A DNA stretch of 64,000 nucleotides, taken from Heterotrichella gracilis. Its lineage: Eukaryota > Sar > Xanthophyceae > Tribonematales > Xanthonemataceae. Shown here piece by piece: positions 1-64,000 of this stretch. Location of the stretch: the NCBI GenBank assembly GCA_032358255.1, contig JAULBX010032035.1, positions 100,199-164,198 on the forward strand, read 5' to 3'. Within the stretch, counting starts at the first letter, position 1. Every line of letters starts with the position of its first letter. The notes beneath the pieces are model-generated. The model was given only the letters and a program-made list of their open reading frames with translations. It was not told where the DNA came from and did not search any database. The translations under genes were made by a program, and so were the position numbers.

Positions 1-560
1 TTCCCCCGCGTGGCAATACAAAGGCGTGGCATGGCATGCCATCCTAGCGTTCCCCTAGCCTAGATCCGAGCATACTCCAGGGCCCTGTGGGGCTTCCCCA
101 CCTGCAAGCCCTAGTATGGCTTCGCAGCGGCCTTGCAGTGGCCCTGTTTTACACCATGGTGGACTACCTGCACCACAACTGGAAGAACTTCTACACCTAC
201 CAGCTGTTTGCAACCCTAGTAGGGTTCTCGGTGGTGTTCAGGTGGCCGGATGGGTGGAGTGGGTGGGAGGGTGGGTGGGAGGGTGCCTTGTAAGTGCGTC
301 CTCGTGGTGCCATGCTGGACTCCATTGCCTGGTCCCATCCCAGCCTGGGTGGTGCACCCATTGCTGCAACCGCATGCGTGTACACGGCATGGTGCGGGAA
401 AGGCCATCACACCCTTGGGTACCATCCGTGTCCCTGCCACAAGGAACAGCGCCTAGCTGCCTTGGCAACTGCCCTGCAGGGGTACAGTGCGCCAGCCTGG
501 CAGTACCTGCGCATGTACCACACATCAATGGATTGCCCGCACAGTACCACTTACATGCCT
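1..560 (+). pseudogene. Broken duplicate of bestrophin exon 1 and its flanks
   Basis: The first about 560 bases match about 3121-3725, that is the upstream flank, exon 1 and part of intron 1 of the bestrophin gene. The copy still encodes the stretch FYTMVDYLH(H/D)NWKNFY and ends in the same TTCAG-GTGG donor near 243. It is broken in two ways: the ATG used by the intact gene is changed, and 34 bases are missing after the TATGGCT stretch near 115-121, which shifts the frame between the first and second halves of the exon. No copies of exons 2-9 follow it before the intact gene, so this is a partial duplication and not a second gene. It could still act as an alternative non-coding first exon, because its donor is intact. 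The duplication may extend left of the window. Confidence 0.8.
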
Positions 561-3120
561 ACGCACTTGAAGTTACAGCAAGCTAGACCAGCTACTGGCA
601 CCTCTTGCAGTAATGGGCACACTGCCAAAGAGTTGTGTGATCCCGCACAGGCAAACTGAAATCAGCAAATGCACAGCACCAAAACAAAGGCGGTCTGCGT
701 GGTTCATCTTTGCTTGGCGCGCACCATGCATTGCTTATTCTCCGAGACAACAGGAGGTAATGGTGGGGCAGGTCACCTCCCCCTCCTCCTGTTGTCTCAG
801 AGAATAAGCAACGCATGGTGTGCGTCGTGCCCGGGGCGGTGGGAGGGACGGGGCTGGGAGGTGCAGCAGGAGGTTGGAGGCGTGATCATCAGTGCCCCTG
901 CATCACAGCGGGCTTGAGCACCGCACGCATGGGTGGTAGGACGCGTGCGCTGCCGCTGTGGAGACTGCACAAGCTACCTTCGGGCAAGAACGCTTCCAAA
1001 ACGAGCGGCACCCTGCCACAACCACCCATGGTGCCCTGGTTGGTGGCTGTGGTGCAGCGGAGGGGGATGCCCAAACCGCCATGGGGCACCACAAGAGGCA
1101 CAGCAGATGCTTTTAAATCGCCGTTGGCAGCAAAGCCGTAGTGGTCCTGCACGCGCAAGGGAGGAGAAATGGGTTCAAGGTATTCCCAAATCAGGAATAA
1201 AAAGGGGGAATGTTGGGCCATTCGTGCATAGATGCAAAATTTGACTCTGCTCAAACAGGTGGGGGATTGGGAGTTCATCTATGGCCATTCAGAACATTAC
1301 AGCGTACTTCAATGCATAACCGCTATGCAATGATGGTATGCACTGTCACAGTATATAGAGAAGGCAAGGCATGCGGGAGAGGGTAAGGCATCCTGAGGCT
1401 CCCCACATCCCATGTAAGCATGCTCACGAGGAGAAAGGATCCCAAGCTGAATATTTGTACTGTGCTACATGGTGCCGTTAAATATCAAAATGGCAGTAAT
1501 TGTCACTGCTCGTACATGTTTTCCATGATGCCAGCAATTCCATTCCTCAAAAAGCACACAGGCTCAAAACAGCACGCCAGTTCAAACTGTTTGTGTTACA
1601 TTTTAACAAGACACTTATACAGGGTTTTTAATGGAATCAAGCTACACTGCTCTCAACACGGTTCTGCATGTACATGGGCTCCACTACCCAGCACGCCACC
1701 TTGTTGTCAGAGCACCGCCTCCGCTGTCACACTTTGCAACCCCCACACCCTTGCCCTGTTATACTTGTATACCCCTTGCCCTGCCTGGCTCCGCCTGCGC
1801 AGCAAACCAGCCATTGACTAGTGGCTAGGGTGCGCTGTGTGGAGTATCTGCAAAGACATCGCGCAAATGCTGCTCAACAGCTTGCAAAATCTTGACGGAA
1901 GGGGGCAAGAATGCCCAAAGAATGACCAAGACATACAACATATGCACTGCCCACCACACCCGAAAATGCACACCAACTTGCGCAGAAGATTAGACGGCAC
2001 GCCCACCCGTACAGCACCACCCTACCTGCAAAGTACTTTGACTCTCAGAGAGGAATTGAAAATCGACTCCAGTGTAGTAGAAGGCATAAGGAATGCTGCA
2101 GAAACCCAATATGAGGACCAGCAGAACGACAAAGAGATCCTTCCCAACGCTTTCGTCAGATTCCACCTGTGTGGACATTGCACTTCAGTCAGTACTGTGG
2201 TCAGCATGGGCTAGAACACCACCAGGCACTCTTCTGGATCCAACTACAATAGTTCAGACGACTGAGAGAAACGCTTGGCGCTGGGATAATGTACCACCCC
2301 GACAACATGCATGGACCCTGACGTTGTGGCAAGCCTACAACAGTGTTCCCACCACCCGTGGACCCTCAGAACGTATATAATAAAGCGTTTTACCTTGGCA
2401 GTGACAACCCTCCATCGTTACCCACCTCAAAGGACTCTGCTGCTTCGCCACGAGACCTTTCTGCTTGCTGACAAGGGCGAGACTTTTGGTTCCCTCTGTA
2501 TTCTGGACTGGTCTCTGCCTGTGGGGGCCCCCGGCGCCTGACATCTTTCCCTCTCGCAGAGCAAGTGAGCCTGTTTGTGCTGTGCCTGAAGCTGTGGATA
2601 TGGCGAACGGGGTGGACCTGGTAGGGGCTGCTCTCGGCACCAGGCAACTGGCGAGACACCACTGCTGTTCTGACGACACTAGCCATCGTGCGCGTTGACG
2701 CTGGGTATGCAAAAGCAACAGTGGGCGCTGTCGCTGCACAGGCGTGGGTAATTGCTACCTAGTAAAACTCAACGTGTGTAAACCACGGCGCAGATGCATG
2801 CATGCATCTCGCAAGCTTCAACTTCATATACATGCAACAGGAAGGTTGATCACCCGCAGCGTCAGTTGCAGCCACGGTGCCGGTGTTCGCACGCTACCGG
2901 TTGGGTTCGGCGAAAAGTACCAGACCGCAACGCCTCTCTGCAAGTTGATATGCATGCATGCAAAGTTTCTCCCCGTCCCACTGGGCCTGCATGTTGGCCC
3001 CTGGCAAACAGCGCAACGAGATAGCATAAGCAGCGAGGTGGTGCATCACGCGTCCACCTGTATCACCCATCAAACAACACGTCGGCAATCTCAGTTATTG
3101 CGGCTGCAGACGCGCTGCGC
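561..3120. other. Intergenic region between the exon 1 copy and the bestrophin gene
   Basis: About 2.5 kb with no exon I can recognise on either strand. Short open frames occur (for example 889-1278 on the minus strand) but none shows family motifs or a consistent splice pattern. It holds the inverted repeat at 721-823 and several TGCATGCA palindromes (near 2795 and 2952). Confidence 0.5.
721..823. repeat. Near-perfect inverted repeat (hairpin)
   Basis: Arms 721-757 and 785-823 are reverse complements over about 37 positions with two mismatches and one 2-base indel, separated by a 27-base loop. The core TTGCTTATTCTC...GAGACAACAGGAGG is shared. It could be a foldback element, a small MITE or the template of a hairpin RNA; there is no coding gene at this spot. 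Confidence 0.75.
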
Positions 3121-3202: not shown

Positions 3203-6200
3203 ATGATCACGTACTCCAAGGTCCTGTGGGGCTTCCCCACCTTCCTGCGATGGTATGGCTCCGCGGTGCCCCGCGCACTGCCCCCTGCCCTGCTGAGCAG
3301 CGGCCTAGCGGTGGCCCTGTTCTACACCATGGTGGACTACCTGCACGACAACTGGAAGAACTTCTACACCTACCAGCTGTTCGCAACCCTAGTAGGATTC
3401 TCGGTGGTGTTCAGGTGGGTGTGTGGAGCAGTGTGCCTTGGATGTGCGCCCTTATGGCGCCATGCACTCCCGCAAGGTGATGTGGACTCAAAAGCCTGGT
3501 CCCAGGGGGTGGTGCAACCTTGTGCCTTGCTGCAGCCATGTAGACTTTGCAAGGCAAGGTGCGGGAAAGGCCATCATGCCCTTGTTTAAAACCCCTTGCC
3601 CAAAGGGATGATGCCTAGCTGCCTCCTTGGTCTGTGCGCTTTGCAAGGGTACGGTGCGCCACCCTGGCATATACGTAGGTACCTACGTATGCCGCACACA
3701 GTTCCATGGATGCCTGCACATTTACAGTCACACGCCTGCAGATTCACAATTGCGCTCCTGCACAGTACCAGTAAATGGTTCACACTGCGTCATCTGTTCC
3801 ATTGGTTGCGCTGCAGGACCAACATCGCCTACAACCGATTCTGGAGTGCGCGCAGCGGGGTGGCCTCCCTGCAAGCGCAGCTGGTCAGCGCCTGCTGCCA
3901 GGTGCGCACAAAACCCTAAAACCCTGGCACTACCCTTCCACGCAACCCTCCATGCTGGGTGGCAGAGCGCGCACGCCTCCATACACTCATCCCACCACAT
4001 GTGTCACCCCACGCGCCCGTTTGGGGCTGCTCACCACGCTCACCCTGGCAGTGCTCCTCCACACAAACCCTCCACGCTGGCCTCCCTGCAATCACTCCAC
4101 CAGCGCACTGTGTTATGCATCACGCTGCACCCTGTGTTTCCTGAGAGGCTCCGTGTGCCTCACCCCTCATGGCAGACACATTCCCATTCCCGCCAATACA
4201 CACCCTGCACTGGCAGCCCCGCAACCCTAAACCCTAAACCCTAAATTGGTGGTGCATGGCGCTTACAAAACCCCACCCCCCACCCCCCACCCGTGACACC
4301 ACCGTCATCCCCCACCCTCCCCAGGCCATCACCTACGACCGCTGGAACCTGCCGCCCGCCACCCCCACCACGCCCCCCACCGCCCTCCCACCCCCCACCC
4401 CCTCCAGCTCCGCATTCTGCAACCGCCTGGTCCACCTCACCTCACTCCTGGCAGCATGCGGGCTGCAGCACCTGCGCCAGGACTGGGAGTGCGACAACTT
4501 GAGCATGCACAGGCCGGAGCAGCTGCCCCCGCCAGCGGTGAGTGGGGTGTGGGGAGAGGGGTGGGGGTGGTGCGGGGTACCAGGGGTGTGTGGGGTTTGA
4601 AGCCGGTGTAGGTGTAGGCCCACCGCTGGGACCAGTGGCCTTTGTGGAAATTGTGGCAATGCTTTTTGTAGCAATGGCATTCCAGCCAGTTGGCCCCGCC
4701 TCAATCATGCTGGGGGGTGCAGGATAAAATGCGGAGTTGGAGCCCTGGTGTGTGTGGAGTGGGGTTTGTGGTGCGCTGTGAGGGAAGGGGATGGTGCGTG
4801 CTACGCAGGATGTGTGATCATGTAACTACTGTGTACGGATTTTGCTTTCCCCCACTTGCCTGGCCCCCCTCAGGACTCTGCCGCCCTGCGCCCCTCTGTG
4901 TGGCACATCTAAAGCTTGTGTACTACTTTTGATTGCATCCTCCCAGGACTCTGCCGCCCTGCGCCCCTCTGTGTGGCAGTGGATCCGCCACAGCCACAGG
5001 TTCTTCGTGCTGTGGACCGAGATTGGCACGTACAAGCGGTACTACAGGTGAGGCCAGGTGGTGTGTATGTATCGTGGGGAAAGGGGGTTGGGGGGAAGAC
5101 TGCATGGCAGCGGTTTCAGAAGTGGTGGGTGTGCAGGGGCCAGCATCAGCCGTCATGGTGGGAAATGTGTGTGGAGGGGTGGTGGTTGGTGGTGGGAGGG
5201 AGTGGGCAATGCTGGTGCCAGTGGAAAGGGAGGGAGGGGAGGGAGGAGGTGGCAGTAATTGTATTTTATGGTGGTGGAGGGGCTGTGGCACATTTTGTAT
5301 AGCGGGAGCAATTCCATTTCCCCCCTGTGCTCACCGCATTGCCCCTCCTTCCCCATTCTTCCCCTGCAGTCGCTCCCCCTTGAGCGTGATAGGGGGGGTG
5401 AGCCCTGCAGAGGTGGGCCAACTAGAGCGTCAGGCGCTTGATGCCGCACCCCCCGGGCACCACCTGCGGCGCATGCGGTCCATGGTGTCTGGCAAGGAGT
5501 TCACCATACAGGAGGGGGCGTGGTTCACCACAGGTGGGTAGGGTGCAGGGTAAGGTTTGCAACAGGTGGGTTGGGTTTGAGGTAGGGTTCACGACAGGTG
5601 GGTTGGGTTTTGGGTAAGATTCACAACAGGTGGGTAGGGTATGGCTGTTGAAATGAGTCCTGCGTCCCAGCTAGGGCATGCATGTGGAAGTCCTACTGCA
5701 TGTGCATGAGTGTCTGTGTGTGCCGCCAATGGCTAGGTGGGACGTGGATTGCCGCTCAGCTCCCACCTACACCCTACACCCACTGTACACCAAGTATGTT
5801 GTCAAGGACAATAAGATAGTTATAGGTCCTATTACTCTCTTATTGCGCTTGCTGTCGCCTGGCAACTGCATGCCCCTACCCTCTACCACATTGCCCCCAA
5901 ATGCACCCCCTTGCATTTTTCACCCCTTTCCCTCCCACCCCCCCCAGGCAGCTACGCCCCCTTTGGCCCCGACCGTGTGTACCGCGTGCTTGGCTGGATA
6001 CACCAGCTGCTGGAGGTGCGCCACAGGCAGGGGGGGCTGCAGGTGGAGGGGCCGCTGAGGGCAACGCTGTACACCCTTATGGCGGGGGCGCTGCAGGCAT
6101 TCGAGCAGTGCAGGTGCGGTGCAGGGCAGGGGAGGGGTCCTTGTGTGATGTGGCGATGAACGGGGTGGCGATGAATGGGGTTGGGTGCTGAGTTGCTGGC

Positions 6201-8216
6201 TGGTGGTAGGGCATGGAGGGAAGCGGTTGGGGGCAGCAGAAGCGCACCGGAATTTGATACATCCCAGCATGTACTGCATCCACGGTTTTAAGGTATTTTT
6301 TAAGTTAAGGGTTTGGCGCATGCACTTATGCAGCATCCAAACCCTGAGTGCTGCATGCCATTGGCAGCCCAGCGCTGCACTCAAGCCCACACGTGCTCCA
6401 GCCTCTTCAGCGGGCCCCCTCCCCTTCCTTTTCCCTTCCCCTCCTTCTCCCCCCCTGCAGGGCCCTGTCCGAGACCCAGTTCCCCTTCCCATGGGCCCAG
6501 GCCATCAACTTTGTGCTGGTCATGTTCACACTCACCGCACCATTTGTGGTGGTGGCCTCGCACTACAGCATCGAGCTGGTAGTGGTGGTGACATTCATCA
6601 CAACGCTCACCTACTGGACGGTGGAGGAGGTGGCTCGGGACCTGGAGGACCCGTTTCTGTATGAGCCTAATGACCTCCCCTTGGCTCAGCTACAGGTGGG
6701 TGGTCGAGGGGGGGGCCGGGGGGGTAGCGAAGGGCACTAGCTACAGTGGTGGTGGGGTTTAGGGTTCAGGGTGCAGAGTTTAGTTTGGCACATGGCAGCA
6801 ACTGCAGTATGGAGTTGGTGGCGGCGGCCACATATATCACCATCCTCACGTATTGGTTAATGGAGGGGGTGGCAGGGTCTTTGAGGAACCATTCCTCTGA
6901 CAGCCGTATGACCCTGGCTCAACTGCAGGTGGGTGGTGTGGTGTGGGGGGGTGGTAGGACATATGGTGGCAAATAGAACAAGGGTGACTGCTGATCTGGC
7001 CGCAAACTGAGTGCAAGACTCTTCAGATGCATTCAACTACCTCGTGTGCACAGCCTTACACTTCAGGTGGTGGGTGCATCTGCACCTCCAACTCAAGGAT
7101 TGATAGCATGGAGGGCATTCTGTATGATGAAAGAATCTTTAATCAATAAATTGTTTTTTTTTAATAATGAATGCTTTATCATTCATATGATTTAAAATTC
7201 ATCCAATTATTCATCTATTTGTTTGGATATGGAACACCAGGCTCAGATTAGACAGGGCAGGCTGATAAAGAGTGCCGCGCCCCTCTGCCCTGCCCTCACC
7301 CTTGGTCATGTCGCTGCAGTTTGAGTTCAACCAGCGCCTCCTCACATGCGCCAATGCGGCGCTGAACCCTGTGGGGTGGGGCCCCGCCATCAGGGGGGTT
7401 GCGTCGTCTGCCATTGCCGCTGGCAATGGTCCGGTTTCAGAGCTGGAGCGCTACGACTCCATGTGGCGCACACCCACTGAGGGGCACTCGCAGGGGCTGG
7501 CAGGTGGGAGGAGTGGGGGGCATGTGGAGGGGTTGGAGGGGGGCAGCATGCACTCTGCAATTTGGCCAGTTGGCCAGTCGTTGCAGTGGCTGTAGCATGC
7601 GGTCCAGGGAGCAAGCATGTGGCAATAACAAGAGATCATTGCATGGGGCCGTAGCATGTGGTGGGTGGAGATGTGCAGCAAGGTTTTGCGGCAGGTGGAT
7701 GGCTGGCAGGGCATGCAGGGATCATTGCCCTGCTGGGTAATGATTCAGGGGCTGCACTTGCATCACACATGCAGGCAGGCGCGCCTGTGTGGTGCATGGG
7801 TGTGCAAATATTGGCAGGTATCGCCCATGGCCACTTGCACTGCACATCACCAAACGCGTGCACGCCCACGATGGGCCAGCCGCGGCGCCTGTGCCGTGCA
7901 CTGGGGGTATTCCGGTTGCATTTGCCTTGCATCCACGCATCCACGTGGCCACATGCCATGCACTTTTGTAACATGCCATGCTGTTGGGGGGTAAGCACAC
8001 GCTGAGTGGGTTGGGTGTGTTGCAGGGAGCCAAGGGGCGCCATCCCTTACCATGGCAATGGATGGTATTCCCGAAACAACGGGGGTGTTGCGTGGCGATG
8101 CAGTAGTGGAGGTGGACGACGTGCGGGTGCCGCTGATGGGTGCAGCCACAGAGCGGGTGCAGCAGGATATGTACTACAGCACACACAGGGAGGAGGGCGG
8201 CTTGGAGAACGTCTAG
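3203..8216 (+). CDS. Bestrophin-family (RFP-TM) anion channel, 516 aa
   Basis: Nine exons join in phase: 3203-3414, 3817-3901, 4325-4537, 4947-5047, 5370-5533, 5948-6113, 6461-6695, 7320-7503, 8026-8216. The product fits the bestrophin/UPF0187 family of pentameric chloride or bicarbonate channels, which in algae and plants sit mostly in plastid or thylakoid membranes. Diagnostic stretches are the basic N-terminus with FLRWYGS, a first membrane segment, the family motif FRTNIAYNRFWSAR across the exon 1/2 junction, NRLVHLTSLL, the segment PFPWAQAINFVLVMFTLTAPF, and the calcium-clasp-like region EVARDLEDPF followed by EPNDLPLAQLQ. The C-terminal tail is hydrophilic. I see no clear transit peptide, so localisation is open. 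Introns 3, 5 and 7 hold copies of exon ends (separate entries). The start is the first ATG in frame and is kept in the aligned flank. It is convergent with the OB-fold gene. Confidence 0.9.
4874..4905 (+). repeat. Copy of the 5' end of bestrophin exon 4 with its acceptor
   Basis: A CAG acceptor followed by 32 bases (GACTCTGCCGCC...) that are identical to the first 32 bases of exon 4 at 4947-4978, 73 bases downstream. After the copy the reading runs into unrelated sequence with an early stop, so splicing to it would truncate the protein. Confidence 0.85.
5523..5641 (+). repeat. Four tandem copies of the exon 5 donor junction
   Basis: The exon 5 end TTCACCACAG followed by GTGGGTAGGGT recurs three more times in the first 110 bases of intron 5, as GTTTGCAACAGGTGGGTTGG, GTTCACGACAGGTGGGTTGG and ATTCACAACAGGTGGGTAGG. 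Each copy keeps a usable CAG-GTGGGT donor. Confidence 0.8.
6781..6945 (+). repeat. Decayed copy of the 3' half of bestrophin exon 7 with its donor
   Basis: About 150 bases in intron 7 match the end of exon 7 (about 6555-6700). In the same frame it still reads MELVAAATYITILTYW and MTLAQLQ before a CAG-GTGGGTGG donor, compared with IELVVVVTFITTLTYW and LPLAQLQ in the exon. There is no matching acceptor in front, so it is a dead exon fragment or an alternative 3' exon end. Confidence 0.8.
7125..7235. other. AT-rich island in bestrophin intron 7
   Basis: A stretch of A and T runs, including a run of nine T, in otherwise GC-rich surroundings. Similar islands occur in introns near 27411-27470 and 44945-45030. 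No coding content. Confidence 0.5.
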
Positions 8217-16865: not shown

Positions 16866-22777
<5,912 letters not shown>

Positions 22778-26944: not shown

Positions 26945-29900
26945 ATGGCCGACCTCCACCAGGCCCGCCAGGTTGTGGCCAAGGTGAAGCGGGGGATACC
27001 CTACACGCTGCCGCACCTGGACGAGAAAACCCTACAGAAGCTGAAGGAGCAGGCCATACGCAAGGCGCACAAGCTCAAGGCACAGGTGGGGAGGTGGGAT
27101 GGGATATGGCGCAGGCGGAGTGGAGGGGGTGAGGGGGGCCCCATCCGGCTTTAGTTCGGGCGTGGTGGGTGGTGAGTGGTGAGGGCGGGGGTGGGGTTCT
27201 TTTACATCCATGCAGACTCCAGGTGGTGGGTGGGTATGGTGGACGTCCACTTTGGCACAACTCCCTCCAAGCGGTATTTGATCAAGGTGCTGGTATTGCC
27301 TGGGCGCGCCAGTCCAGGGCCACCCCTGGTGCGGGGCGAGCACATTTTCAAAAACGGCTTCCCTGGCGAGCACCTGCTTATGCCAGGACATTGGGGTGGA
27401 CAGATGACAGATGACCCTAAACTCTATAATTACTTGTTAATATTAATTTAGAAAATAATAATAGAAAACAATGTGGCGCATGAAGCTGCACCCAGTCCGT
27501 TGTGCGTCTACCTGTGTGCGTCCCACCCACCCCCACTAACCTCAGCGCACGCACCCGCCCTCCCGCGCCTCCGCCAGTGTACCATGCCCCCAATTCCATA
27601 TCTCATCACCACCTCCACTCTCGCAGGCTCTCAAATCCACCTCCGAGGGTCTGGATGCGGCCACGTTAGCAGCACGCCAGGTGGCAGCATCTCGCACACC
27701 GCAGGTCAGTATAACCTACCCAAAGGAAGTGCTGCAAGCAGAATTAAGATAAGCTTACAAATGATATCATAAATGGTAATGTTAACCACTGATCATACAT
27801 ATTACCACAGTCATAGTAACAATAGTCATACATATTTACACAGAATTGACGGTGTTATACCACAATGGTGGCTCACTTCAGTTTGTGCGCATGCAGGAGG
27901 CAGGGTGGCGTGTGTGGGGTGCGTGGCGCGCATTTGACCGGGCTCCAGCTGCTCGCCACCTGGCACGCCTGCTCATCTGCACATACTTTTGCAACCTGGT
28001 GTACGAAGGTGAGGAATTAGGGATAGCTTAGGGCGTAGGCTCATGTGCACATACTTTGCAAACCTGGTCACGCGGGTTTAGGAATTCTGCACACTGTTAC
28101 CCCCTTGAAGGTAATCACATACTCTGCCATCCCACCACCCCGCGGATTCTTGCAATGGCGCAAAATGGCGTGTTCTCTGCCTAGCACAGTGCACACACAC
28201 AGGGCTTCCCGCACGAGCCTCCCCACACCCAAACCATTATATCACCCAAATCCTGACCAGCATACCGTAGTCCAATGCACCTGTGACCAGGACAGGCTCG
28301 TAGGTCTACATTCTCTGCATCAAGCGCCACCACTTACCCCCTCTTCCCACGCTGCAGACTACGAGCAGTGGCGCCACGTGTCCTCCGCCCAGCACCACGC
28401 GCGCACCCAGGGCTTCCCGCACGACTCTTCAGCAGAGGCGGGATTCCCCCTGTTGGGCGTCTGCGTGGTGCTGCCCTGCTGCCTGCTGGCGGTGCTGGGT
28501 GTGCGCCTGACTGCTGCCGCCAGCATCCTGCTCTTGGACACAGCGCGGGACAGCGCAAGGATCGTCTACACGCAACTGTAGGTGGCGGCTAGGGTGAAAT
28601 GCATCCTGGCAGGGTGTGTTGGGGGGATGGCCAAGCGGGAAACCCTGGGTTAGGGTTTACTATGTGCGTCACTTCCATGGTGGTATGCTGCTGCACCTGA
28701 TTAATCATTTTGGATCAGTTTGGTGTGCATACCCAATTTTCCACCCATCTGTATCGCATCCATGTGAGGCGCATCCATACGTAGTGGGCAAACGCCACCA
28801 CCTCTTGCATACCCAGAGGATCACACCTCACCCTCCCCACCCAACCCAACCCCTCGCACACCCACTCCATCCCCCGCAGCCTGATGTGGGCGCGCTACGG
28901 CCACCCCCCCACCGAGATCCTGGTCAAGCGCCTGGCAATGGTGGGGGCAACCGCACTGGTGCTTGCACACTCCCTGCGCCCCACCCGCACCAAGCCCACC
29001 ACCTACGCGGGGCTGCTGCTGGAAGGGGGGGAGGAGGCGGGGGGGAGGGGGCCGCAGCCCGGGAAGGGGAAGTCTGCTGCGCTGCTTGCGGGGAGGCTGC
29101 TTATGGCCACGCTGTTTGTGTTTGTTGGGGTGGAGCAGGTACGGAGGTGGGGGGTGGGGGTGGAGGTGGGCGGTCGCTATCATAGTGGGCATGCTGTTTG
29201 TGTTTTTGAGGGTGGAGCAGGTGAGTGTGTGTCGGGTTGGGAGGGGGGAAAGGGGGGTCTCTGTTGAGGAGAGTTTTGCAATTGGGTTTTGATGGACAGG
29301 GTGGGAGGGGCGTGTCAGTCTGTGTGAAGCGCGTAAGGTTCAAATTGGAGCATTTGGATGTTGTGCAGCGGTCTTTGCGGCATGGGGATTGGGAAGCACC
29401 CTCCACTCCTCGTTTGACTGTGTGGTGCCCCCCTTGCCCCATTCCTGCACCCTTGTGTTGCCCATCACCATGCTTGCCCCCTTGGCAACATGTGCCCCCC
29501 TGCACCCCGCCAACCCCCACCACCATCACCACCACCACCACCACCGCCACCCACCCAGCCAGATCCAGCGCGCGCATTGACAGGCAATGTTGGCTTCTCC
29601 CCTCACTCCCCACCCCCCATTTCAATCCCCGTTCGCCCCTGCCAGGTCCAGCGTGTGCTTGCGCGTGACTGGGCAGCCGCCACCCACCACCTGCCCCCCT
29701 CTGAGGCGCACATGGGCCACGACAACAACTGGCTGCTGCTGGAGCTGGTGCTGGCGGTGCCATTTGCGCTGGGGTACAAAATTGAGGTGTGTTTGGCAGT
29801 TGAGGGGCATACAATGAGGGTTGGGTGGGAGTCATACATGTCCCACCCCTTGCCACCCACATCTGGCCTTAAATCCCTGCCTTTAAACACATACCACCAT

Positions 29901-43105: not shown

Positions 43106-46100
43106 ATGGCTCCGCCCCAAACAGACTCAGGCGGTGCACCTGGACACATCTTCAAGCTCGTGAGCGATGAGGACAGCCTGGATGACGCCAGCTTGGCGGT
43201 ACTCAGCCACTCAGCCATCGAGCTGGCAGAGCTCCCCGACTCCTCTGCAAGCGCTGGCCTGCTGCCCAGCAACGGCCACAAGCCACCCAGCAGCGGCCAC
43301 AACAGCCCCAATGCTGGCGGTGCCCGTGGTGGGGGAGGGGAAGGCGCCTCCCCCCTGTCTGGAGCCCTGCCCCAGAGCTTTTCTGCTGTGTTGGCGGGGG
43401 AGCGCACCGCGCTGCTTGACTCCACGATTCGCAGCCACTCCACACTCAGCCACACAGACGGTGCGTGCACACATGCACCCATCCCCCCCCCACACACTCC
43501 ACCCCCAGCCACATAGACGGTGCGCAACACATGCACCCTCAGCCACTCAGACGCCGTGCATACACATCCACACTCACTCCACCCGAGTCACATTTCCTCC
43601 ACGTGAGTCACACAGCATGTGCCCACTCAAAACACGCACCTGGGCAAGGGTTTGCAAGGTGTCCACTTCTGGTCCTCCCACCCACCACAACCCATGACAC
43701 GCGGATTACTGGACCATCCCAGTAGCTACCAAATTACAACCTGCATAACTACATTCCATTGCCCCTCACCCCACCCCCCACCCCTTTGCAGCCACCGACC
43801 GCGCCCGCCTCACCCCCCGCCAGCGCAACTACCTCGTGGCCATGCTGTGCGCCACAGCAGCCCTGCTCTACGCCGACCAGAACCTCATGGCGCCCAACCT
43901 CACTGCCATCGCAGAGGACCTGGGCATCAAGGGGGGAGAGGACAGGGATAAGTACCTGGGGGGGTACATCGCGGCGGCGTTTTTTGCTGTGGGCGCCCCT
44001 GCTGCGCTCATCATCGGCTACCTGTGTGACCTGGTCAACAGGCGGAACCTTTTCCTCACGGTGGTGCTGCTCGGTAGGGTTTCAGTAGGGTTTGAGCGAG
44101 GGCGGTGGTGTGAGTGGTGTTCAGAATTGCATGTCGCACAACATGGTGTGACCACATGCACATTCGCCATGGCATGACTTCCATGGGTACATCCATGATG
44201 CGCTGGCAGACACCGAGGACCATCCCTCCTGTCTCCCTTGGAGCTTATATTGCAAATGTGTGCCTTCTCGCATTTTAGAGCCCACATGGCATGCTACAGC
44301 ATACTTCCTGTGAAGCACCCTTTAACCCGTCCCACCGCTCCCCCACTGCAGGCGAGGCCCCCTGTATTGCCACCTACTTTGTGACCCGCTACTGGCAGCT
44401 CTTTGTGCTGCGCATACTCACAGGCATCAGCCTGGGGGGTGCGCTGCCGCTCATCTTTTCCCTGCTGGGCGACATCATCCCATCGGACAAGCGCTCGCTG
44501 GTGTCGGCGGTGGTGCAGATCTCCACTGGGGCGGGCCTGGCGGTGGGGCAGGCGGTGGCGGGGTGGCTAGGTGAGGGGGCCATGCACTGCATGGGACTCT
44601 TTTCCACGACCACACCATCTCCTAACCAAAACCCTCCCAAAAGCCCATCAACCCCGACAATATCATCCTACCACTCCAGCCAAAAAAAAACCCTCCCACA
44701 CAATACCCGTAGGCTCCACCGTCAACTGGCGCCTGCCCTTTGTGGTGGTGGCTGTGCCCGCGGTGGCGCTTGCCGCCGTCTTCGCAGCAACCACGCGGGA
44801 GCCGCCCAGGGGCATGAGCGAGGTTGCCCTGGCCGAGCAATACACGTGGGAGGGGTTTGAGTACACGGAAAAGATTAACTGGAGCAAGGCGAAGGACATT
44901 CTGCGGATACGGACCAATTGGGCGATGATACTGCAGGTGGGTGGCGTGTTTCAGAGTAATAATAATTAGCTTATCGCAATAGTTAAATTTATATTATTAT
45001 TTTAATTAAAATAAGTTGTTGGTAAAAGTGTGATTAGGTGGTGGTGGTGATGGGGTTGACAGGAACTGCAATGCATGGTGGGATAGTCCTTGTCCCCACA
45101 TGCAGCTGCAGATGTCGCCACGCGCAACCACCAACATTTGGGGCAACCACCAATATTTGGCGCAGGTGGCGCTCACTTTGCTGATCAGAGGTTGTGTACT
45201 CCCCCCTGCAGGGTCTGCCTGGTTCCCTCCCCTGGGGCATGGCGCTCACCTTCCTCACCGACTTCCTGGCGCAGGACAGGGGGGTGGGCATCGGCCTGGC
45301 CACACTGGTGCGGGGGCAGGGATAGGGTGGGGTGTGGGTTGGAACCATGAGAGGGCGCACCTGACTTTGTTCTGCCAGCATAGATACACATGGGTGCTGG
45401 GGCGCTGTTCCCCCTCCTCCCCATGGACATTGCCCTCTCCATGTCAACACATTCCATAAACCTTCCACCTATCACTTCTTATCGTCGCCGCCCCTCCACA
45501 CGCACACAAGCACATTCCATTTGCACAGCTTCCCTTGCCAGGTTTAACATACCCGCTCAAGTTTACAAACTCCCACCTGCTCACGAGTCCGCTCCCAACC
45601 CCTCTCCCCACCGCAGATCGTCCTGTCCATGGGGGTGGGCGGCCTGTTTGGCGTGGTGGGGGGCGGCGGCCTGGGCCAGCGCCTGTACAACTGGCGCAAG
45701 CCCTACTGCACGCTGTTTGCCGGGGCCTGCGTGGCGCTTGCGCTGCTGCCCATGATGGTGCTTGTGCACATGGATGCAAAGGGGAACGTGGCGGGGGCGG
45801 TGGCGTGCAGCGCGCTGGCGGGGGCGCTGGCATCGGTGCCGGGGCCAAACATACGGTGCGCTGCATGATTGCAGGAGGTTGGGGGCAAAGGACTAAATGC
45901 GCAGGGACCCAAATCCCTTGCTACCACTGGATCATTAGGATGGGAATCATATGGGACAGCTGATAGCACATGTATTGCTTGGGTGATTGGGAGGGTCAGG
46001 GATTGCAGTAATGTTTTGTATTACCTCTGCCGTGTGCACAGGCCATGTGGGGAATTTTTACGATAGGACGCCTGACACACCACAGTGGTTTCTTATTACC

Positions 46101-49460: not shown

Positions 49461-52400
49461 CTACGAGGGGGCGAACCCGTTGCGCCCCCACCCCTGTGAG
49501 AAGTTGAGCATGGGGCTCTTGGCATGGTCCAGGCGGTCGGCCAGCCTGCAATGGGGGAGAGGAGGGGGGAGTCAGTGGAACGTCAAGGGAGGCCGGAGGG
49601 GTGAGACATTTAGCAAGCAACAGGCCCACAGAGACACTGCCTTGGTCATTGTGTGAGGGCGCATGCACATCAGGACGCAGAGAAGGCCATTGCTTGTGAA
49701 GAACTCCAGTGAACCACAAAATTTGATGAATTTACATATCTGGTTACATGTGACACAACCCAGCCCCCCAATCCCTCCTCACCTCTGTGCGCCGCACACC
49801 GCCGCCGCTAGCTCGGGCGTCTGCGCTGCGGTGTACCCCGTTAGGGTCGCCAGGGAGGAGGGCCAGTAGGGCAGCAGCCCGCGAGCCCGCCTGTCGGCGT
49901 ACAGGATCCCCGCAGCAACCACGCTGGGCCTGCAGTTGGGGGGGCATCTTTCAAATTGCTGCAACTTCAATAAACTGAAATGAAATATTTTGCAAAACTG
50001 GAAAAAGAACACAAATGAGTTGCTACGCAGTCCCGTCCCTGGTCAATTGGCATTTGGCGGGGTTAACAGGAGTAAAGGGGAAGGCATTCCTCGCCTGTCC
50101 ACTGTGTCATGTCCCCTCCCTCGCAACACCACTACCACCTCCTACACCCCCACCTGTAGTTGAGGAACTCCATGTCGAACAGCGCCTCAAACACCAGCTT
50201 GAACGCCGACGCGTGGAAGGTCTTTGCCTGCGAGTACTCGTTGCCCAGGCGCTCCATGTAGAGCTTGAGGCAGCGCAGGGCCGAGATGGCGGTGGTGTCC
50301 TGGGCCAGCAGCTGGGAGATGTTGCGCTGCATCTGCTGGATGAGCTCGGGGGAGAAGCCGGTGGTGCGGGCAACCTCGGCCTGCAAGGGGGAGGGAGGGT
50401 CAGCGGTGGGGGAGGGGGGCAAGGGGAGGGGTGGGTGGAGGGTTGAGCAAGGTGAGGAGTCAGCAATGGGGGTATAGGAGGTCAGCAGTATGAGGAGGGG
50501 AGCAACATCAGGGCTGCACCACCATGTGCCCATCCAGGTAAGGAGGATAAGAGTGGAGAACCGAGGGTGAACCCCACCCACCCTCAAAAGCACGTCCCCC
50601 TTAGGGTTTAGGGTACCTAGGGCAAGCTCTACCCACCTCGGAGGGCACATCCTCCTGCCTGCCCGACTGCTGCAGCAGCATGAGCATGCAGGCCACCACC
50701 GCCAGCGGCAGCAGCGAGTCCTGAACCGTCATGGGGACACTCATCACCCGGTCCATCAGCAGCACGCAGTCATACAGGATGTCGTCCTGAGAGGGGGGGG
50801 GTAGTGTGAGTGTTGTGGGAGGAGGTAGGGGCGACATTGACCTTGTGGGCAATTAGGGTCCAGGCATAGGGTTTTAGGGTCCAAGCTGAGACTTCCCATG
50901 CGTAGGATTCCTCACTTTGAGCGTGTGCGCTGCCTGCAGCGCTCTTTAGGATGGACTGTTTAGGGTTTAGGGTCATTTATGTAGAATTTAGGGTTCCTCA
51001 CCTTGACATTGAGCGAGTGCGCCACCTGCAGCGCCGTGGCAATGATGTTGCTCCTCTCCTGCAGGTAGACATAGCCCATGGACTGCACGCTCAGGTTGTG
51101 GGTGTCCTCAAAGTACTTGACGGCGCCAAAGGCCTCGCCCACGCGCATGCCTGCAAGGGGGGGAGGGGTGGTGGTGGTGAGGGGGCGAGGTCAATGTAGA
51201 AGGGAAGGAGGGGACGGGTGAGTGGGCGTGGAGCAGACAGATTGCTGCAGGCCTCTTTAGAACCAGACCCCACCGAATAGGCATACCCCACAGTTAAGAC
51301 TGCAATGCAGAGGGCTGCATTAACTACAACCGCACCCCGGCTTCCCATATCCTACATTTCCCACATTTGGCCAGACTTCACCCCACCCCTACACCTGCAC
51401 CCTACCCATGCGAACACACCTGTGGCCACCTCCTTCATGACCTCAATTTGAAGTCGATTATGGATCTCAAGGTTTGCCGTAAACCCTAGACAGTGTACCC
51501 TTAAAACCCTAGCCACCCACCTGTTGCCACCTCCTTTGACAGCTCAAAGTCTGTCCTGCCCTGGTTGGTGGGGCTGAGGGAGGAGGGCAGGGCGGGGAAG
51601 AGCATGCAGAAGGTGTCGGGAGGGGAGGAGGACAGCCAGTCGGCCACCTGTGCCCCCGCGGCATCCAGTCGCCCCATGTGGGCGGTGTTGTCGGGACACT
51701 CCTGGTGGTGGGTGAGGGAGAAAGGGGTCAAAAATGGAAGGGAGGTGTGGGTCGGAGTACACGGATGGAGAATACCTAGAGACACTTCGATATCCCATAC
51801 GCATAATTTGTGTTGCAAACTATGTGTTTCTATATTTTATTGTTTTTATAGCTGCATTGTTTGTTGTTGGAAGCACCCTGTTTCCATTTTCAAAGTCCTT
51901 TGCTCACCTTGAAAGGCGCCTTGATCGTCCTGAGCAGCGCCACCACCGCCTCCTTGACCCCGTTGCTTCCCACGTCCTTGTTCTTGCACTTGCCAAGCAC
52001 GATACACACCTTGTCGGGCAGGCACTCAGAGCCCTCAGAGATCACCCGGTCCCTGCACAGGGAGGAGTAGGGTTTAGGGTTTTCAGTGCAGGGTTTAGGG
52101 TTTAGTCAAAGCCCTCTAGAAAGGCACACAGTCTCTGCACAGGGGAAGAGGGGGATGGTGTTTGTCTACTGAACAAGCAAGCGTCAAATGCGTGATCAAC
52201 CAGGGTTTTCCTCCCAAAACCCTAGGGGGGTGTTCCCGCACCTCAGCTCGTGCACCCATGCGTAGAGGCTCAGCAGCGCCACGCTGGCGGTGGTGGAATG
52301 CAGATTGAGCTCAAGGGTGTCGGCACACAGGTGGGCGGTGCGGCGCAGAAGCCCGTCCTGTGTGGCCTGCCTGAACAGCGCCAGGGCCTTGCGCTGCGCC

Positions 52401-55400
52401 CACTGCACGCCGGTGTCCCACAGCGCGTCGATGATTGCGTTGTACACGATGGCGTCGGGCTCGCAGCCGGCGGACTGCATCTGGGTGAAGGCCTGCGGGG
52501 CGGGTTAAGCGTTTAGGGATTTAGGAGCCAGCGGACTGCATGTGGTGAAAGTGTGAGGGAGGGAGAGGTTCGTTACATCAACCCTAAACCCTAATCCAAT
52601 TTCGTTCCAGGCAAATCAATGTGTGGGCGGCTTTGAACAGCAATAAGTGAACAACAAGCTGATGTTAAGGGTTGGTGGGTGAGTGCACAGGATTTTGCTA
52701 GAATTATTTGTATGCCTGCACTGCGCATAGAGTAAGGTTTTGTCAGGGTGTGTTATTGCACCTGCAGCGCGCGGCGCCACTGGCCCCCCCGCTCGTATGC
52801 GCCGATGAGAGCTGTGTACGTGACCACGTCCGGCGTGCACCCCTGGCGCTGCATCTGGTCAAACACCTCGCTGGCCTTCTCCCACTGGGCGCCTGCAGGG
52901 TAGGGTTTAGGGCTTAGATTTGGGGTTTATGTTTGGGGTTAAGGCTCTACATTACAGTGGGTTCCCTCAAGTGACCCTCGTTGGTGCGATGTTGTAGACA
53001 CAAGACACATAATATAGACATACAGCATGACGTTAAAGACATGACACAAGACACATTTTAAATGACATACAGCGTGTTCACGTTCTGCCCCCTCCTGCAG
53101 GTCCCAGCCGCATCGCTCACCTTGCGCGCAGGCGGTGATGAGGGAATTGAATGAGATGACGTTTGGCACGCACCCCTCCTGCTGCATCTCCTCAAACAGC
53201 TGCAGCGCCAGCTTCCACTCGCCGTGCTTCTCGCAGGCGCTGATGAGCGAGCTGTAGGTGATCACGCTGCGCTCGCAGCCCTGCAAATGTAGGAAAGAGT
53301 AGGGTCTGTAACGGATACCCTAAACCCTAATATGAGCGAGCTGTAGGTGATCACGCTGCGCTCGCAGCCCTGGGCAAGGGGAAAGGGTAGGATTAGTAAC
53401 TTGTGTGCCATGGCCCATGTAACTTAGCCTGCATCTCTAGGCTTTCAGTCAAATTGCAGCGTTCCGGGAGAATGAGCAGCGCAGCAGGATCATGATATCG
53501 CTAGATCAAGCAGCGGTAGAGACAGCGCAACAAAAGAGACTGCTTGGCGCCGCTACTTGTGGCAAGACTGTAGCGCCAAACCTGACACCTAGCCTTCCTC
53601 GGTAGATTTTTCGGTCAGGTGGTAGGGTTTTGAGCGCCCGCACCTGCTGCACCATCTGGTGAAAAATCTCCAGCACCTTGCTCAGGTTGCCCGCCTTGCT
53701 GTATGCCGAGATGAGCGCGTTGTAGGTGGTGGTGTTGGGTGTGTGTCCCGCCTTGATCATCTCGTCATACACCTTGAGCGCCTCGTGCCACTGGCTGGAG
53801 GTGTTGCAGGCAATCATGAGGGTGTTGTAGGTGCGGGTCACCGGCTCGATGCACTGCAAGGGGGGAGGGAGCGGGTCAGGGGGCATTGAAGGGGAGTGAA
53901 CACAGTCAAAAAATGCCAGAAAGGAGTAGCACATCACTAGGGTAATCATGGGAGAGCAGGGGAGGATCGAGGGGGTGATACAAAGATCGGGAGAAGAGAC
54001 AGCAGGCACCATGATAATACAGAAATGCATGCCGCAGCAGGATCCAGAATAACAGAGTGCCGCCACTAAATGTATGGGTGTGCCAGGCGCGACGCATGGG
54101 TGCCCTAGGGTTTAGCATGCTTTGGGTTAAGGGTTTAGGGTTCCCTCCCCACCTCCTTCTTCATCTTCTCCAGCACCTTGACCGCCTCCTCCCAGTGCCC
54201 GATCTTGCCAAACACGTCGATGAGCGTGTTGTAGGTGACCACGTTGGGCGCACAGCTCTCGCGCTGCATCTCCTGGTACACATCCAGCGCAAGCTGCAGC
54301 TGCCCAGACTTGATGCACACGTTCATGAGCGCGGAGTAGGTGTGCACGTTGCGCTCCACACCCCGCGCGCGCATCTGCTCGGACAGCTCCAGCGCGCGCT
54401 CCAGCTCCTGAGGAAGATAGCAGTAAATAAGGAAAGTTTTGATTCTCTCGGGAGCACATAACAAAGAGGGGGGTGCGATGCTGTTATGGCATTTAGTAAT
54501 TTGCCATAACAGCAATTTACTAAATGATACAAGGTTATGTAGCAAATTAGCAATGAAAACTATTAAGTGCTGTAGAAAGGCCAAAACCAATGTTACGGCA
54601 TGTACCCAGGCCAAACCCAATGTCACGGGGCGTTAGAATGCTACTCTGGATGTATCGCTAGAACCCAAGTAAGTAAGGTGCTGTAGTGGTTACCTGGTGG
54701 CTGACGCAGTTTGATATCATTGCTGTGTATGTGTACACGTCGCACAGGTGGGACAGCACGTGCTCCTCGTCCAGCGAGGTCAGCCAGTCAAACACCTCGT
54801 GCGCCCGCCCGCCAAGGTGGTTCTTCACAAGCTCCTGCAGGGCGGGATCGGCCCGGATTGATACAGGTAGTACATTGTGTAAAACAGCCACAATTTCAAG
54901 GAGGCTTTCAAGCCAAATTTAAGATGCACGCACTGGATAGGCGCGTTTGTTGAGAAAGGACAGCTAACAAAGTGGAGAGAAGTGCCCCCCTGTCCATCCT
55001 GTCATCTAGCATGCCAGTCTCATACCTTGAGCAGGACAGCTGTGCCCCTTGAGTCCAGGTACTTGAGCCCCTCGCGGCACACAGGTTCAGCGCTCTCCTC
55101 GTGGTGCAGCCGCTTGATGCGCCACAGCAGCTCCTCCACAGGGGAGTCGGAAAACGCAAACTCAGACGAGGAGGAGCCGTCGCGGTTGAGGCGGCGCACG
55201 CCGCGCCCGCGCCCCACCCCGCGCCGGCCGCGCCCGCGGTAGCCGTTGTTGGCGCGCCCGCCATTGCCACTCCCGCCGCCCCGCCCGCCGCGGCCAAAGC
55301 CGGGGGCCTTGCTGGGGTTGAGGTTGGCGGGCGGGATGGTCTGGCCGCCCCACCCCACCTGGGCGTTGCTGGTGGGTGGGTATGCGGGGTGTGGGGGTGC

Positions 55401-60934: not shown

Positions 60935-61328
60935 GACGTTGGAACCATGTCTCCCATCGCACTGTCCGTACAAATAAAACCCGTTTACCTTTGCCAATAT
61001 ACTATGTCCAGGGTATTGATGCCCAGTTGATGAGAACGTGTGCTTGGTATGCTGGTGTTTCTGAAGCTAAACCAGCCTCCCTATCTTGCTTCCCAACATA
61101 TATATGTGGGACCCGACACCAGTGGACCACGCTCGGCCACAGCCACACATATATACTCCAGGAAATAGACAACGCAGCACAAAGCGTGGGAAAACCCATT
61201 TCTCTTCTGCTCCTGGCGAGCATCGCATATCCGAGTAGACCCACACTGCCCGTCTGCCTAGGAAAGCCCGTACCACAATGCATGCACATATGCATGCATC
61301 CGCCATCCATCGCGGCCTGGCAGTGCCG
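60935..61328. promoter_or_regulatory. Divergent promoter region (SDHAF1 and DUF815 genes)
   Basis: 394 bases between the two start codons. Two TATATA stretches, near 61098-61106 and 61147-61154, face the DUF815 gene and lie about 180-230 bases before its chosen start; CATATATATGTGGG and CCACACATATATAC are partly inverted to each other. Confidence 0.4.
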
Positions 61329-63604
61329 ATGTCGGCATTCTCAGGCAGCCAACCCCGCGTTTCAACGCATGCATCAACGTACTTGTCGATAAGCGCGAGG
61401 AAAGCAACCAGCTGGCAGCATCGGGGGCTGGCAACGAGCCATACCCGGTCTCTAGCCAGCCCCTTTGGGCCACAACAAACCGGGAGCATACCAAGGTCCC
61501 GGCGGGCAGCGGTTCGAGTGATGGCGATAGGCTTCGACCTGCCTGGCACAACCAGTAGCAAGGGTACGTCAGCTGGGGCAACCGATTTGGTTTGTAGTGC
61601 TCATGCTCCTGGGTACTGGCCACGCTCAGCTTGTTATATGGTCTATAGTTGTGAATGAACAGCGTGGTGGGTTACTCAGGATTGCTCACTACAAGGGAAC
61701 GCTGTGCCCCCAGAAAAAGAATAAACGTGTCTGGGTTGGGCAGAATCGCCACTGGTTTGGGCCCCCTTGCACCTGCCCCAACCCACCCACCAACCGCAAA
61801 CGTTCCAAACGCCCTTCAGGAGCTGAGAAGCAAGCTGATGACCTGCTGCGCGCCGCCTCCTCCCTCTTGCTGCTCCAGCCGGTGCTCAGGGGCAAGCCCG
61901 CACAGGCCTTCCTGGCGCTGCTGCAGAGCCTGCGGGGGGGGTCGGGCAGCAGCGTGATGGAGGCGTTTGGCCAGCTGTATGCGGCGCTGGCGGCGGAGGG
62001 GGCCACCAGCTGGCAGGAGCACCTGCTGGACCAGGTGGGGGGGTGCTGAACCCTTAGGGCGAAATCCTGTTACACTGAACCCTGAGAGGGGGAGGGGCCA
62101 CCAGGTGAGGGGCCCACCTGGCTGGACCAGGTGGGGGTTGGGAAGGGTCCTGAACACACTTCGCATATGACGCACACCCTGTGGGGTCCACGCATGCACC
62201 CCTCCCTGTCCCCAGTCAACACCACACTCCCTTCCCTACGTATGCTTCTGACCGTGCAGAGGGTAAGAAAGGGCACGAGTCGACCTTAAATGAAACTGCC
62301 GATCGCCGGTTGCGCACAGCAATTGCTTTGTTTTGTCATCTGGCTGAGAAATAACCTCTTCTGCAGATCCTGCTGGGCAGGGACAGCTCCTTCGCCAAGG
62401 CCTGCGCCCGAGGCAAGGTCACCCCCGACAGCCCCCTGCTCCGGGCTGTGCGCCACGACCTTGACGTGCTCCAGCAGCTGAGTGTGGCTGAGCGCACGGT
62501 GGTGGGGTGGATTCGGGATGTGGTGCCGGGGGTGCCCGACAGCTGGGCGGCGGCAGGTGTGGGGTGGGGAGTGGGTGGTGGACAGCTATGTGGGGGTAGG
62601 TGGGGTTTGAAGGGCCGGCGAGGGAGAAGGTGTGGGGATGTGGTGCCGGGGGTGCCTGACAGCTGGACGGCGGCAGGTGGGGGGTGGGGGTGTGTTGGTT
62701 CATATCCAGGTAGTTGTGGGTGTGAGGTCAGTGGTGGCCAGAAATGATTTTTTTTTTTTTGGTGTAATTGTTTTTGGTGTAATTGTTTTTGTGGTGTAAT
62801 CACCTGTTGGGTGCCATCATCAGTATGCGGTGAAGGGGCCCTACTGTCGCGGTCATGCGCAGATTGTCAACATGGCAGAACTATACTAAAATAAAATGTT
62901 TTCATATGGCACAATGTGGCACGCCGACAACGCCATCCTCCAACCCTCATAAATGTCTGCCAACTGACTCTCACCCCCTGCCACGCAGCCGACATCTATG
63001 ATGGGGTGCGCCCCGCAGCCACCACCACCACCAGCAGCAGCAGCAGCGATGCGCAGCCAGGCACTTCGAAGCAGCAGGGGCAGCAGCCCCCTACCCCCCA
63101 CATGGGCGCGCCCCCCACCCCTGAGCAGAAGGCGGCATGCGTGGACAGCATCGGGAACAGGTGGGGAGGGGGGGCGTGGCACAAGGGGGAGGGGCCGATG
63201 AAAAGTTCGGACTGGTTAGCATGGGGCTGGCATGGGAGCTCGCATGGTCAAGCCTCATCACCATACAGAACTGCCTGTGTATGAAGCGCATGCTGTGTTC
63301 TCCTAATCGTCAATCTATGTATATGCCCGCATCTGCGCCACGATGCACTCCCACCCATGATCCTCATGCCCTCTCATGAAATCCTAGTGCACCTCTACCA
63401 AAGCTCTATCACGCCCACACGTTAACTCTGAGAACCCTCCACAAAACCCTAACAGTCCCGCCATCCAAACCCTCCCCAGGTGGCGGTGGAGCGAGGGCGT
63501 GTGGGCGCTGTCCGAGTACTACGCAGCCCATGGCTATGGACTCCTGCAGGGGCACAGCAAGCTGACGTGGAAGGGGGGAAAGCTGGAGGCAATCACTGTG
63601 GAAG
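61329..63604 (+). CDS. DUF815 P-loop NTPase, 5' part (gene runs off the window)
   Basis: Five exons lie in the window: 61329-61563, 61820-62034, 62367-62556, 62989-63160, 63480-63604; the last ends in a GTGAGG donor and no further exon is seen before 64000. About 312 codons are present. The first about 65 residues (MSAFSGSQPRVSTHASTYLS ... RSRRAAVRVMA) look like a chloroplast or dual-targeted transit peptide ending in a VRVMA site. The middle is helical (LLRAASSLLLLQPVL, VMEAFGQLYAALAAEG) with a Thr/Ser run. The diagnostic block is VDSIGNRWRWSEGVWALSEY followed by KLTWKGGKLEAITVE, which precedes the P-loop in plant DUF815 proteins. The Walker A region itself would be in later exons outside the window. 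An in-frame ATG at 61278 would give 17 more residues. Intron 3 has a copy of the exon 3 end. Confidence 0.85.
62636..62690 (+). repeat. Copy of the DUF815 gene exon 3 end and donor
   Basis: Forty-plus bases, GATGTGGTGCCGGGGGTGCC then TGACAGCTGGACGGCGGCAG-GTGG, repeat the exon 3 end at 62517-62560 with two substitutions, 121 bases further into the intron. The donor is intact; use of it would shift the frame. Confidence 0.88.
62747..62801 (+). repeat. Poly-T run followed by a 15-base tandem repeat
   Basis: Thirteen T (62748-62760), then GGTGTAATTGTTTTT twice and GTGGTGTAAT. Lies in intron 3. It could be the tail of a reverse-strand retroposed transcript or a plain minisatellite. Confidence 0.7.
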
Positions 63605-64000
63605 GTGAGGAGGGCTGAGTGCAGGCCAATCGGAACAAACACCTGCCTATATTACTACCCTATTCACTGGTAGCTATAGACAGGAGGGAACTTGCCAGGC
63701 AAAATGAAATGTATACTGGTGGTACTTGAAGTCCTCCTGTGATGGTTGTTGTCACGGTTGGTATCTTGCTTAGGGTGCTAGCTCAAGCCCGATGTTCAAT
63801 TCCATCCTTTCTGATTTGTGTCCACACCATGCATCTGATGTTCTTTCCCGCTGCGCACAAGCCCAATAGCCCTGTGCAGAGGTTGCTGTGTGCCCCCCCC
63901 CCCCTGCTGGCATTGTGACGTAATACAGTGGGAGCCACGTAATCGAGTAAGGTTTTAATGGGCGAAAATGGGGGTGGCACTTCAATGCCCAGGATGTTTT
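63605..64000. other. Last intron visible of the DUF815 gene
   Basis: About 400 bases after the exon 5 donor. No exon with the expected P-loop sequence appears before the window ends. Confidence 0.5.

Follow-up and report, generated by a model that had tools for sequence, protein, structure and literature searches.

Why do introns of Heterotrichella gracilis carry copies of the exon ends that adjoin them? An earlier note on a stretch of 64,000 nucleotides (the window) had listed fifteen sites at which the end of an exon recurs, together with its splice site, in a flanking intron. In the larger sample described below, the copies prove to be direct, local and junction-spanning, to decay neutrally, to be anchored at exon edges, and to be associated with a telomere repeat that clusters at their exon-internal joint. 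We see about an even chance that they are local direct duplications of coding-exon edges produced by the repair of DNA breaks.

Sample and gene models

The window is the terminal part of contig C900. A further 238 kb was taken from that contig and from six more, chosen by number and not by content, which brings the sample to 302 kb, or 0.44% of the 68.5 Mb genome of 903 contigs. The genome is that of a photosynthetic organism (43 chlorophyll a-b binding matches). Exon structure was predicted, rather than derived from RNA, by our own HMM gene finder trained on the sampled DNA. The models comprise 490 exons and 414 introns with a median intron length of 285 nt, CAG/GTGGGTG-like donors and TGCAG/G acceptors; the ends of genes are rough.

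Sixteen proteins are predicted in the window. Seven of them were run against Pfam, which confirmed bestrophin, PRMT, SURF4, MFS and PPR and returned no match for the DUF815 gene, which is cut by the window edge, or for the small unknown gene. The predicted PRMT4 protein aligns with solved CARM1 over residues 115-472 without any copy-sized insertion, and the PRMT4 copies therefore lie outside the coding sequence; this is the one gene whose model was checked independently. The PPR gene model (48819-55601) also has a Cyclin_C-like match at residues 830-907, in agreement with the fusion named earlier, and could represent two genes merged by the gene finder. Finally, segment 119-502 recurs in direct orientation at 3292-3669, some 3.1 kb away (72% over 391 positions); the repeat looks like a partial duplicate of the 5' exons of bestrophin upstream of the gene; the predicted peptides are similar.

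Exon-edge copies in the window

At every one of the fifteen listed sites, an exon end matches the adjoining intron locally and in direct orientation, and none of 300 dinucleotide-shuffled introns matched as well. The claim that the duplications straddle a splice junction holds at 12 of the 15, where the aligned stretch includes intronic bases. At 17157, 19701 and 20552 the aligned part is exonic only and ends 2, 5 and 16 nt before the junction, respectively. In the following list, U denotes a copy of the upstream exon's end and D a copy of the downstream exon's start. An additional copy beyond the listed sites and a telomere-like run are included.

4866..4905, + strand: acceptor and first 32 nt of the bestrophin exon 4947-5047, D type; exonic part 32/32 identical
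5586..5627, + strand: bestrophin exon end and donor at 5534, exonic part 12 nt; within a 32-nt tandem array at 5522-5640
6801..6948, + strand: bestrophin exon end (134 nt) and donor at 6696, U type, decayed
17157..17196, - strand: 5' end of the PRMT4 exon 16869-17087, located in the intron before it; exonic only, 78% over 40 nt
18303..18584, - strand: intronic array of copies of the PRMT4 exon end and donor at 18625; four by eye, with telomere-like repeats joining the units
19688..19729, - strand: 5' part of the PRMT4 exon 19276-19451; exonic only
20554..20598, - strand: 3' part of the PRMT4 exon 20649-20747; edge 16 nt off the junction, TTTAGGG-like repeats between exon and copy
21239..21280, unstranded: telomere-like repeat run in a PRMT4 intron
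28040..28086, + strand: SURF4-like exon end and donor at 28009; flanks TTAGGG-like
28135..28216, + strand: start of the SURF4-like exon 28358-28577 with the acceptor side, in the preceding intron; the additional copy
29186..29248, + strand: SURF4-like exon end and donor at 29139
31601..31639, - strand: exon end and donor at 31716 of the small unknown gene; 92% over 39 nt
43495..43538, + strand: MFS exon end and donor at 43461; 59 nt downstream
51414..51446, - strand: PPR-gene exon end and donor at 51520; weak, 79% over 33 nt
52526..52559, - strand: acceptor and exon start at 52492 of the PPR gene; weak, 82% over 34 nt
53332..53398, - strand: acceptor and first 38 nt of the PPR-gene exon 53121-53280; exonic part 38/38 identical, telomeric spacer
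62635..62695, + strand: exon end and donor at 62557 of the DUF815 gene (name from the earlier note); 93% over 61 nt

Copies across the sample

Introns of at least 60 nt (391 of the 414) were scanned for copies, which were called at a direct match score of at least 20, with inverted matches and shuffled introns as controls. This gave 81 direct copies (44 U and 37 D), compared with 0 and 1 inverted matches and none of either type in shuffled introns. At least one copy is present in 74 of the 391 introns: 11 of 81 in the window and 63 of 310 outside it. The pattern is therefore not limited to the window, and is in fact denser elsewhere. The preference for exon ends over exon interiors is also borne out, as 63 of the 81 matches come within 6 nt of the junction and 10 would be expected under uniform placement. 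The copies are local: comparison of upstream exons with non-adjacent introns of their own gene yielded one match in 3565 comparisons. Introns with a copy have a median length of 410 nt (74 introns), versus 276 nt for those without (317).

The density of copies is uneven. None of the 37 introns of contig C10 (L006-L009) has a copy, compared with 22 of 43 in C300 (L018-L020); C10 differs from the rest of the sample in introns with copies at P=0.0006. The number of telomere heptamers parallels this density, with 9 in 40 kb of C10 and 80 in 30 kb of C300. A search for an element shared among the 414 introns gave 35 cross matches at E<1e-3 and no large family in this 0.44% of the genome. Two introns, probably of one gene (L002-L005; window-relative positions -28599 and -27224), share 142 nt with 84% identity.

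Decay of the copies

Decay was analysed in 90 of the 93 matches scoring at least 18, the other three having an exonic part shorter than 15 nt. A copy differs from its exon at rates of 0.113 at the first codon position, 0.112 at the second and 0.194 at the third. Exonic gaps in the copies number 45, and the length of none is divisible by three, under alignment penalties that favour 1-nt gaps. The GT or AG dinucleotide is retained in 60 of 90 copies; in bands of rising exonic identity retention is 8/14, 24/39 and 28/37 (the last at identity of at least 0.9), versus squared identities of 0.57, 0.72 and 0.88. The offsets of the copies leave remainders of 0, 1 and 2 modulo three in 25, 26 and 39 cases, and CpG transitions are about 2.5 times as frequent as non-CpG transitions (0.118 vs 0.048). 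To judge from these comparisons, the copies look dead and appear to decay neutrally, with all codon positions, the reading frame and the splice dinucleotides affected.

It had been suggested that the copies may serve as a source of alternative exon ends or of new introns. The first idea finds no support in copies whose sequence shows neither coding nor splice-site constraint. The second fares no better, as the geometry of intron gain by duplication is present in only 9 of the 81 copies.

Extent of the duplicated unit

The duplicated sequence extends into the intron: in the comparison of 22 donor pairs selected by a retained GT and exonic identity of at least 0.85, identity is 0.41-0.77 at intron positions 3-22, compared with 0.20-0.35 in controls from position 6. 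Homology that stops exactly at the splice site is thereby ruled out for these donors. The intronic part is nevertheless more diverged or interrupted than decay of a simulated tandem duplication would leave it. This comparison covered the 80 of 90 pairs that were long enough. In the 26 pairs with exonic identity of at least 0.92, a median of 0.09 of the expected intron stretch is matched, compared with 1.00 in the simulation, and 27% of these pairs extend over more than 0.6 of it. Plain full-unit tandem duplications do occur, at C300 4112 and C110 17471, and at C300 12501 identity changes in a sharp step.

The divergence of the intronic parts would be accounted for if repair had used a strongly diverged allele as its template. 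Two lines of reasoning disfavour this: third-position differences are in excess (0.194 vs 0.112) by roughly the amount that neutral drift in the genuine exon would produce, and the exact copies of the exons at 4947 and 53280 leave no silent divergence.

A spacer without clear homology is common between exon and copy. Matches elsewhere in the sample were found for 19 of 72 spacers, of which, by eye, 13 are telomere-like, 3 are simple and 3 are of other kinds.

Telomere repeats in introns

Six contigs (C70, C140, C526, C609, C717 and C770) start, within 7 nt, with (CCCTAAA)n. TTTAGGG is therefore the telomere repeat of the species, and the intronic repeat is identical to it. Genome-wide, the 14-mer (TTTAGGG)2 was counted at 5629 positions, versus 5 for a reversed control; in the sample, 43 occurrences are intronic and none is exonic or intergenic. 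Heptamers number 242 in introns (16 after shuffling), 15 in intergenic DNA (8 after shuffling) and 1 in exons. A telomere-like stretch (score of at least 12) is found in 130 of 414 introns, versus 1.5% of intergenic pieces (400 pieces, 285 nt each).

These repeats lie near exons: in either sense they are most frequent 15-45 nt from donors, and a second peak, mostly of CCCTAAA, lies 15-60 nt from acceptors. Sense-strand CCCTAAA is enriched 15-45 nt upstream of acceptors and TTTAGGG is not, as exemplified by the run at 21239-21280; CCCTAAA may act there as a branch point.

The repeats also accompany the copies. Within 40 nt of the exon-internal joint of a copy, telomere 7-mers cover 15-25% of positions, compared with an intron mean of 4.7% and with 3-6% on the other side of the copy. 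Telomere-like sequence (score of at least 12) is present in 27 of 76 spacers, the other 49 being without telomere similarity; the rate is 6% in copy-free intron pieces of equal length, 13% in the remainder of the introns that hold the spacers, and 0.7% in intergenic DNA. The hit rate per gene correlates with heptamer density (rho 0.58, genes with at least 3 introns). The observations of the earlier note that the copies are local and direct, span a range of ages and in many cases adjoin TTTAGGG-like heptamers are supported.

At a score of 10, telomeric spacers are fewer among the youngest copies (6/24) than among older ones (24/52; P=0.13), and the telomere repeat may for this reason have arrived later than the duplication. 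Orientation was scored over the 40 nt next to the joint: the 41 D copies have 4 TTTAGGG and 15 CCCTAAA, which runs counter to the sense expected of telomerase, and the 49 U copies have 14 of each. Simple extension of a broken end by telomerase was rejected, as the strand sense of the repeat at the joint does not fit it.

Exon edges and random duplication

Are exon edges truly preferred, or are duplications at other places merely harder to see? The sample was compared with itself in a manner blind to gene structure (score of at least 20, spacing 40-600 nt, overlapping pairs removed). In the 302 kb, there are 167 direct local repeat pairs versus 8 inverted ones. The direct pairs comprise 113 exon/intron, 25 intron-only, 18 exon-only, 3 intergenic and 8 mixed pairs; the intergenic excess is about zero, with 3 direct and 3 inverted. 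Relative to opportunity, which is a rough measure, there are 5.12 pairs per kb at exon edges, 0.24 in introns only and 0.04 in intergenic DNA, and exon-edge duplications are thus about 20 times denser than intron-only and about 100 times denser than intergenic ones. Of the 25 intron-only pairs, 6 derive in turn from exons and 5 contain telomere repeat. Most exon-only repeats (14 of 18) lie within one exon with a spacing divisible by three, as expected of in-frame survivors or protein repeats.

Random duplications were simulated, decayed and detected in the same way as the real ones. The observed ratios to exon-edge pairs are 25:113 = 0.22 for intron-only and 3:113 = 0.03 for intergenic pairs. 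With the aligned repeat as the duplicated unit, the simulated ratios are 1.4-1.8 and 1.2-1.6, respectively; with the whole offset as the unit, they are 0.62-0.63 and 0.67-0.73. We estimate, by reckoning and not by simulation, that doubling the mutation rate of introns would leave this gap open. Simple neutral tandem duplication should be independent of exon position and should leave the whole unit equally decayed apart from exon constraint; neither is seen here. An effect of CpG or GC content was also rejected: GC-rich positions exist in intergenic DNA (13.2 of 83.5 kb), yet intergenic pairs total 3.

The flanks of genes may help to separate exon edges from splice sites. Matches scoring at least 20 were found at 4 of 60 stop-codon flanks and 2 of 59 start flanks. 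Two of the four stop-flank cases include the stop codon itself, and in one of these the spacer contains TTTAGGG; the remaining two are located within the exon, at distances of 78 and 98 nt. Both start-flank matches extend to the predicted start, and internal exons may have been misannotated there. With gene ends poorly annotated, edge-touching matches do not differ significantly between donors (31/391) and stops (2/60; P=0.29) or between acceptors (32/391) and starts (2/59; P=0.29), and neither do all hits at stops (4/60) and donors (44/391; P=0.37). Since two copies span a stop codon, the splice site may be dispensable for copying, and coding-exon edges are weakly favoured over splice sites as the anchor.

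Origin of the copies

The earlier suggestion of a repair or duplication signature agrees with these data. If the copies do come from break repair, a break would occur inside a coding exon, and repair would copy some 25-180 nt twice, either because a staggered break is filled in or because extension on the sister goes too far before the ends are joined. The joint would often be filled with filler, frequently the telomere repeat of the species. Duplications entirely within an exon would mostly be purged by selection. In those crossing an exon edge, one exon would stay intact and the second copy would turn into intron or 3' flank, where it would be concealed by splicing and then decay neutrally. 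The breaks themselves, the repair route and the entry of the telomere repeat with the event are what we infer from the copies. Several observations count against this course of events: random breaks should strike introns and intergenic DNA too, and the scarcity of intron-only and intergenic duplications is left unexplained; 49 of 76 spacers are non-telomeric; and the telomere orientation and the over-diverged intron part do not follow from it. A tentative, less probable possibility is that a mutational process specific to coding exons or their edges, one that does not act on introns or intergenic DNA, joins local duplication with insertion of telomere repeats and steadily lengthens introns.

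Ordinary random tandem duplication, by slippage or unequal exchange, would be noticed across junctions through the conserved exon partner and purged within exons. It accounts for the direct orientation, locality and neutrality of the copies, for the full-unit cases C300 4112 and C110 17471 and for arrays such as 18303-18673. The simulated ratios far exceed the observed ones, however; whole-offset units are kinder but still too high, and intron parts that align over their whole length in the simulation hardly do so in the sample. We therefore regard this explanation as unlikely. Somewhat more unlikely still is that intronic telomere repeats are fragile sites near exons, at which stalled replication restarts upstream in the exon and duplicates its edge. 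The peaks of repeats near donors (15-45 nt) and acceptors (CCCTAAA, 15-60 nt), the correlation of hit rate with heptamer density and the repeats adjoining the joint are in its favour, but the sequence on the far side of the copy, into which an ancestral repeat should extend, is at background, most spacers are without the repeat, and the proximity of the repeats to exons is left without account. Breakage at exon-intron boundaries by a process of splicing or transcription, such as pausing or RNA-DNA hybrids, would fit the strong edge anchoring, the near absence of pairs in intergenic DNA and the nominal rarity of edge-touching matches at stops. The two stop-spanning copies speak against it and the stop-donor difference is not significant in what is a weak test; we consider it improbable. 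That the copies function as alternative or decoy exon ends is very improbable: many young copies have good splice motifs, with GT/AG kept in 28/37, but coding constraint is absent, gaps shift the frame, offsets ignore it, and splice dinucleotides are lost at about or above the neutral rate. An assembly artefact, with haplotypes stacked in tandem, has nothing directly in its favour in the one assembly used and is scarcely credible, as the copies, unlike allelic exons, carry frame-shifts and differ from the real exons at codon positions 1 and 2.

If exon edges do initiate duplications and telomere insertions, breakage or repair would set coding exons apart in this lineage. The introns would then hold a datable fossil record of repair events, and the process would be a route of intron growth as well as a natural system for testing the role of telomerase in algal break repair.

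Comparison with known systems

Templated insertion by Pol theta is expected to yield both direct and inverted copies. The 167 direct and 8 inverted pairs found here do not match it.

The closest single-gene precedent found is the potato RdRp gene, in which a tandem duplication across an intron-exon boundary created a new intron (PMC4974935). Both tandem duplications cross such a boundary; in our case, the extra copy stays within an existing intron, and this occurs in 74 of 391 sampled introns. The same paper describes the Rogers model, in which introns are gained by duplication of an AGGT-containing exon segment. The copies resemble it as local direct duplications carrying splice signals. The model would place the copy against the opposite splice site, and this geometry is rare in our sample (9/81 judged by an offset equal to the intron length, 8/81 by abutment on the opposite splice site). 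Introners (PMC9860276) likewise represent a mass modification of introns, but no large repeated family is present among the 414 introns of the 0.44% of the genome sampled.

Mammalian interstitial telomeric sequences are inserted at double-strand breaks, some with target duplication or random filler; in the horse, telomere insertion with duplication was ascribed to staggered breaks, and human insertion sites are compatible with random insertion, 31% being in introns (PMC7215372). Here too, the interstitial repeat is the telomere repeat of the species, and in some cases it may have entered with direct target duplication or filler (27 of 76 spacers are telomere-like and 49 are not); it differs in being intron-specific and exon-proximal. 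By analogy with some of the horse insertions, we infer that fill-in or over-extension followed by end joining may be involved. Telo boxes of Arabidopsis and rice are enriched in 5' UTRs, not introns (PMC3022908); the present repeats are also short interstitial motifs of the plant telomere type, but introns far exceed other compartments. TTTAGGG is the ancestral telomere of green algae (PMC8226300), and interstitial telomeric repeats are mentioned for Chlamydomonas reinhardtii, their intronic location being unstated in the available text (PMC6549138). Error-prone resynthesis has been proposed around transposon breaks (PMC5023962), and a similar resynthesis might have caused the diverged intron parts.

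Among the titles and opening lines of abstracts of the literature matches listed, exon-edge copies in algal introns are undescribed, and the earlier remark that no described system fits exactly is a fair one. The parts are nevertheless known from elsewhere, as boundary-crossing tandem duplication and telomere insertion at breaks with target duplication have each been described in the sources cited above.
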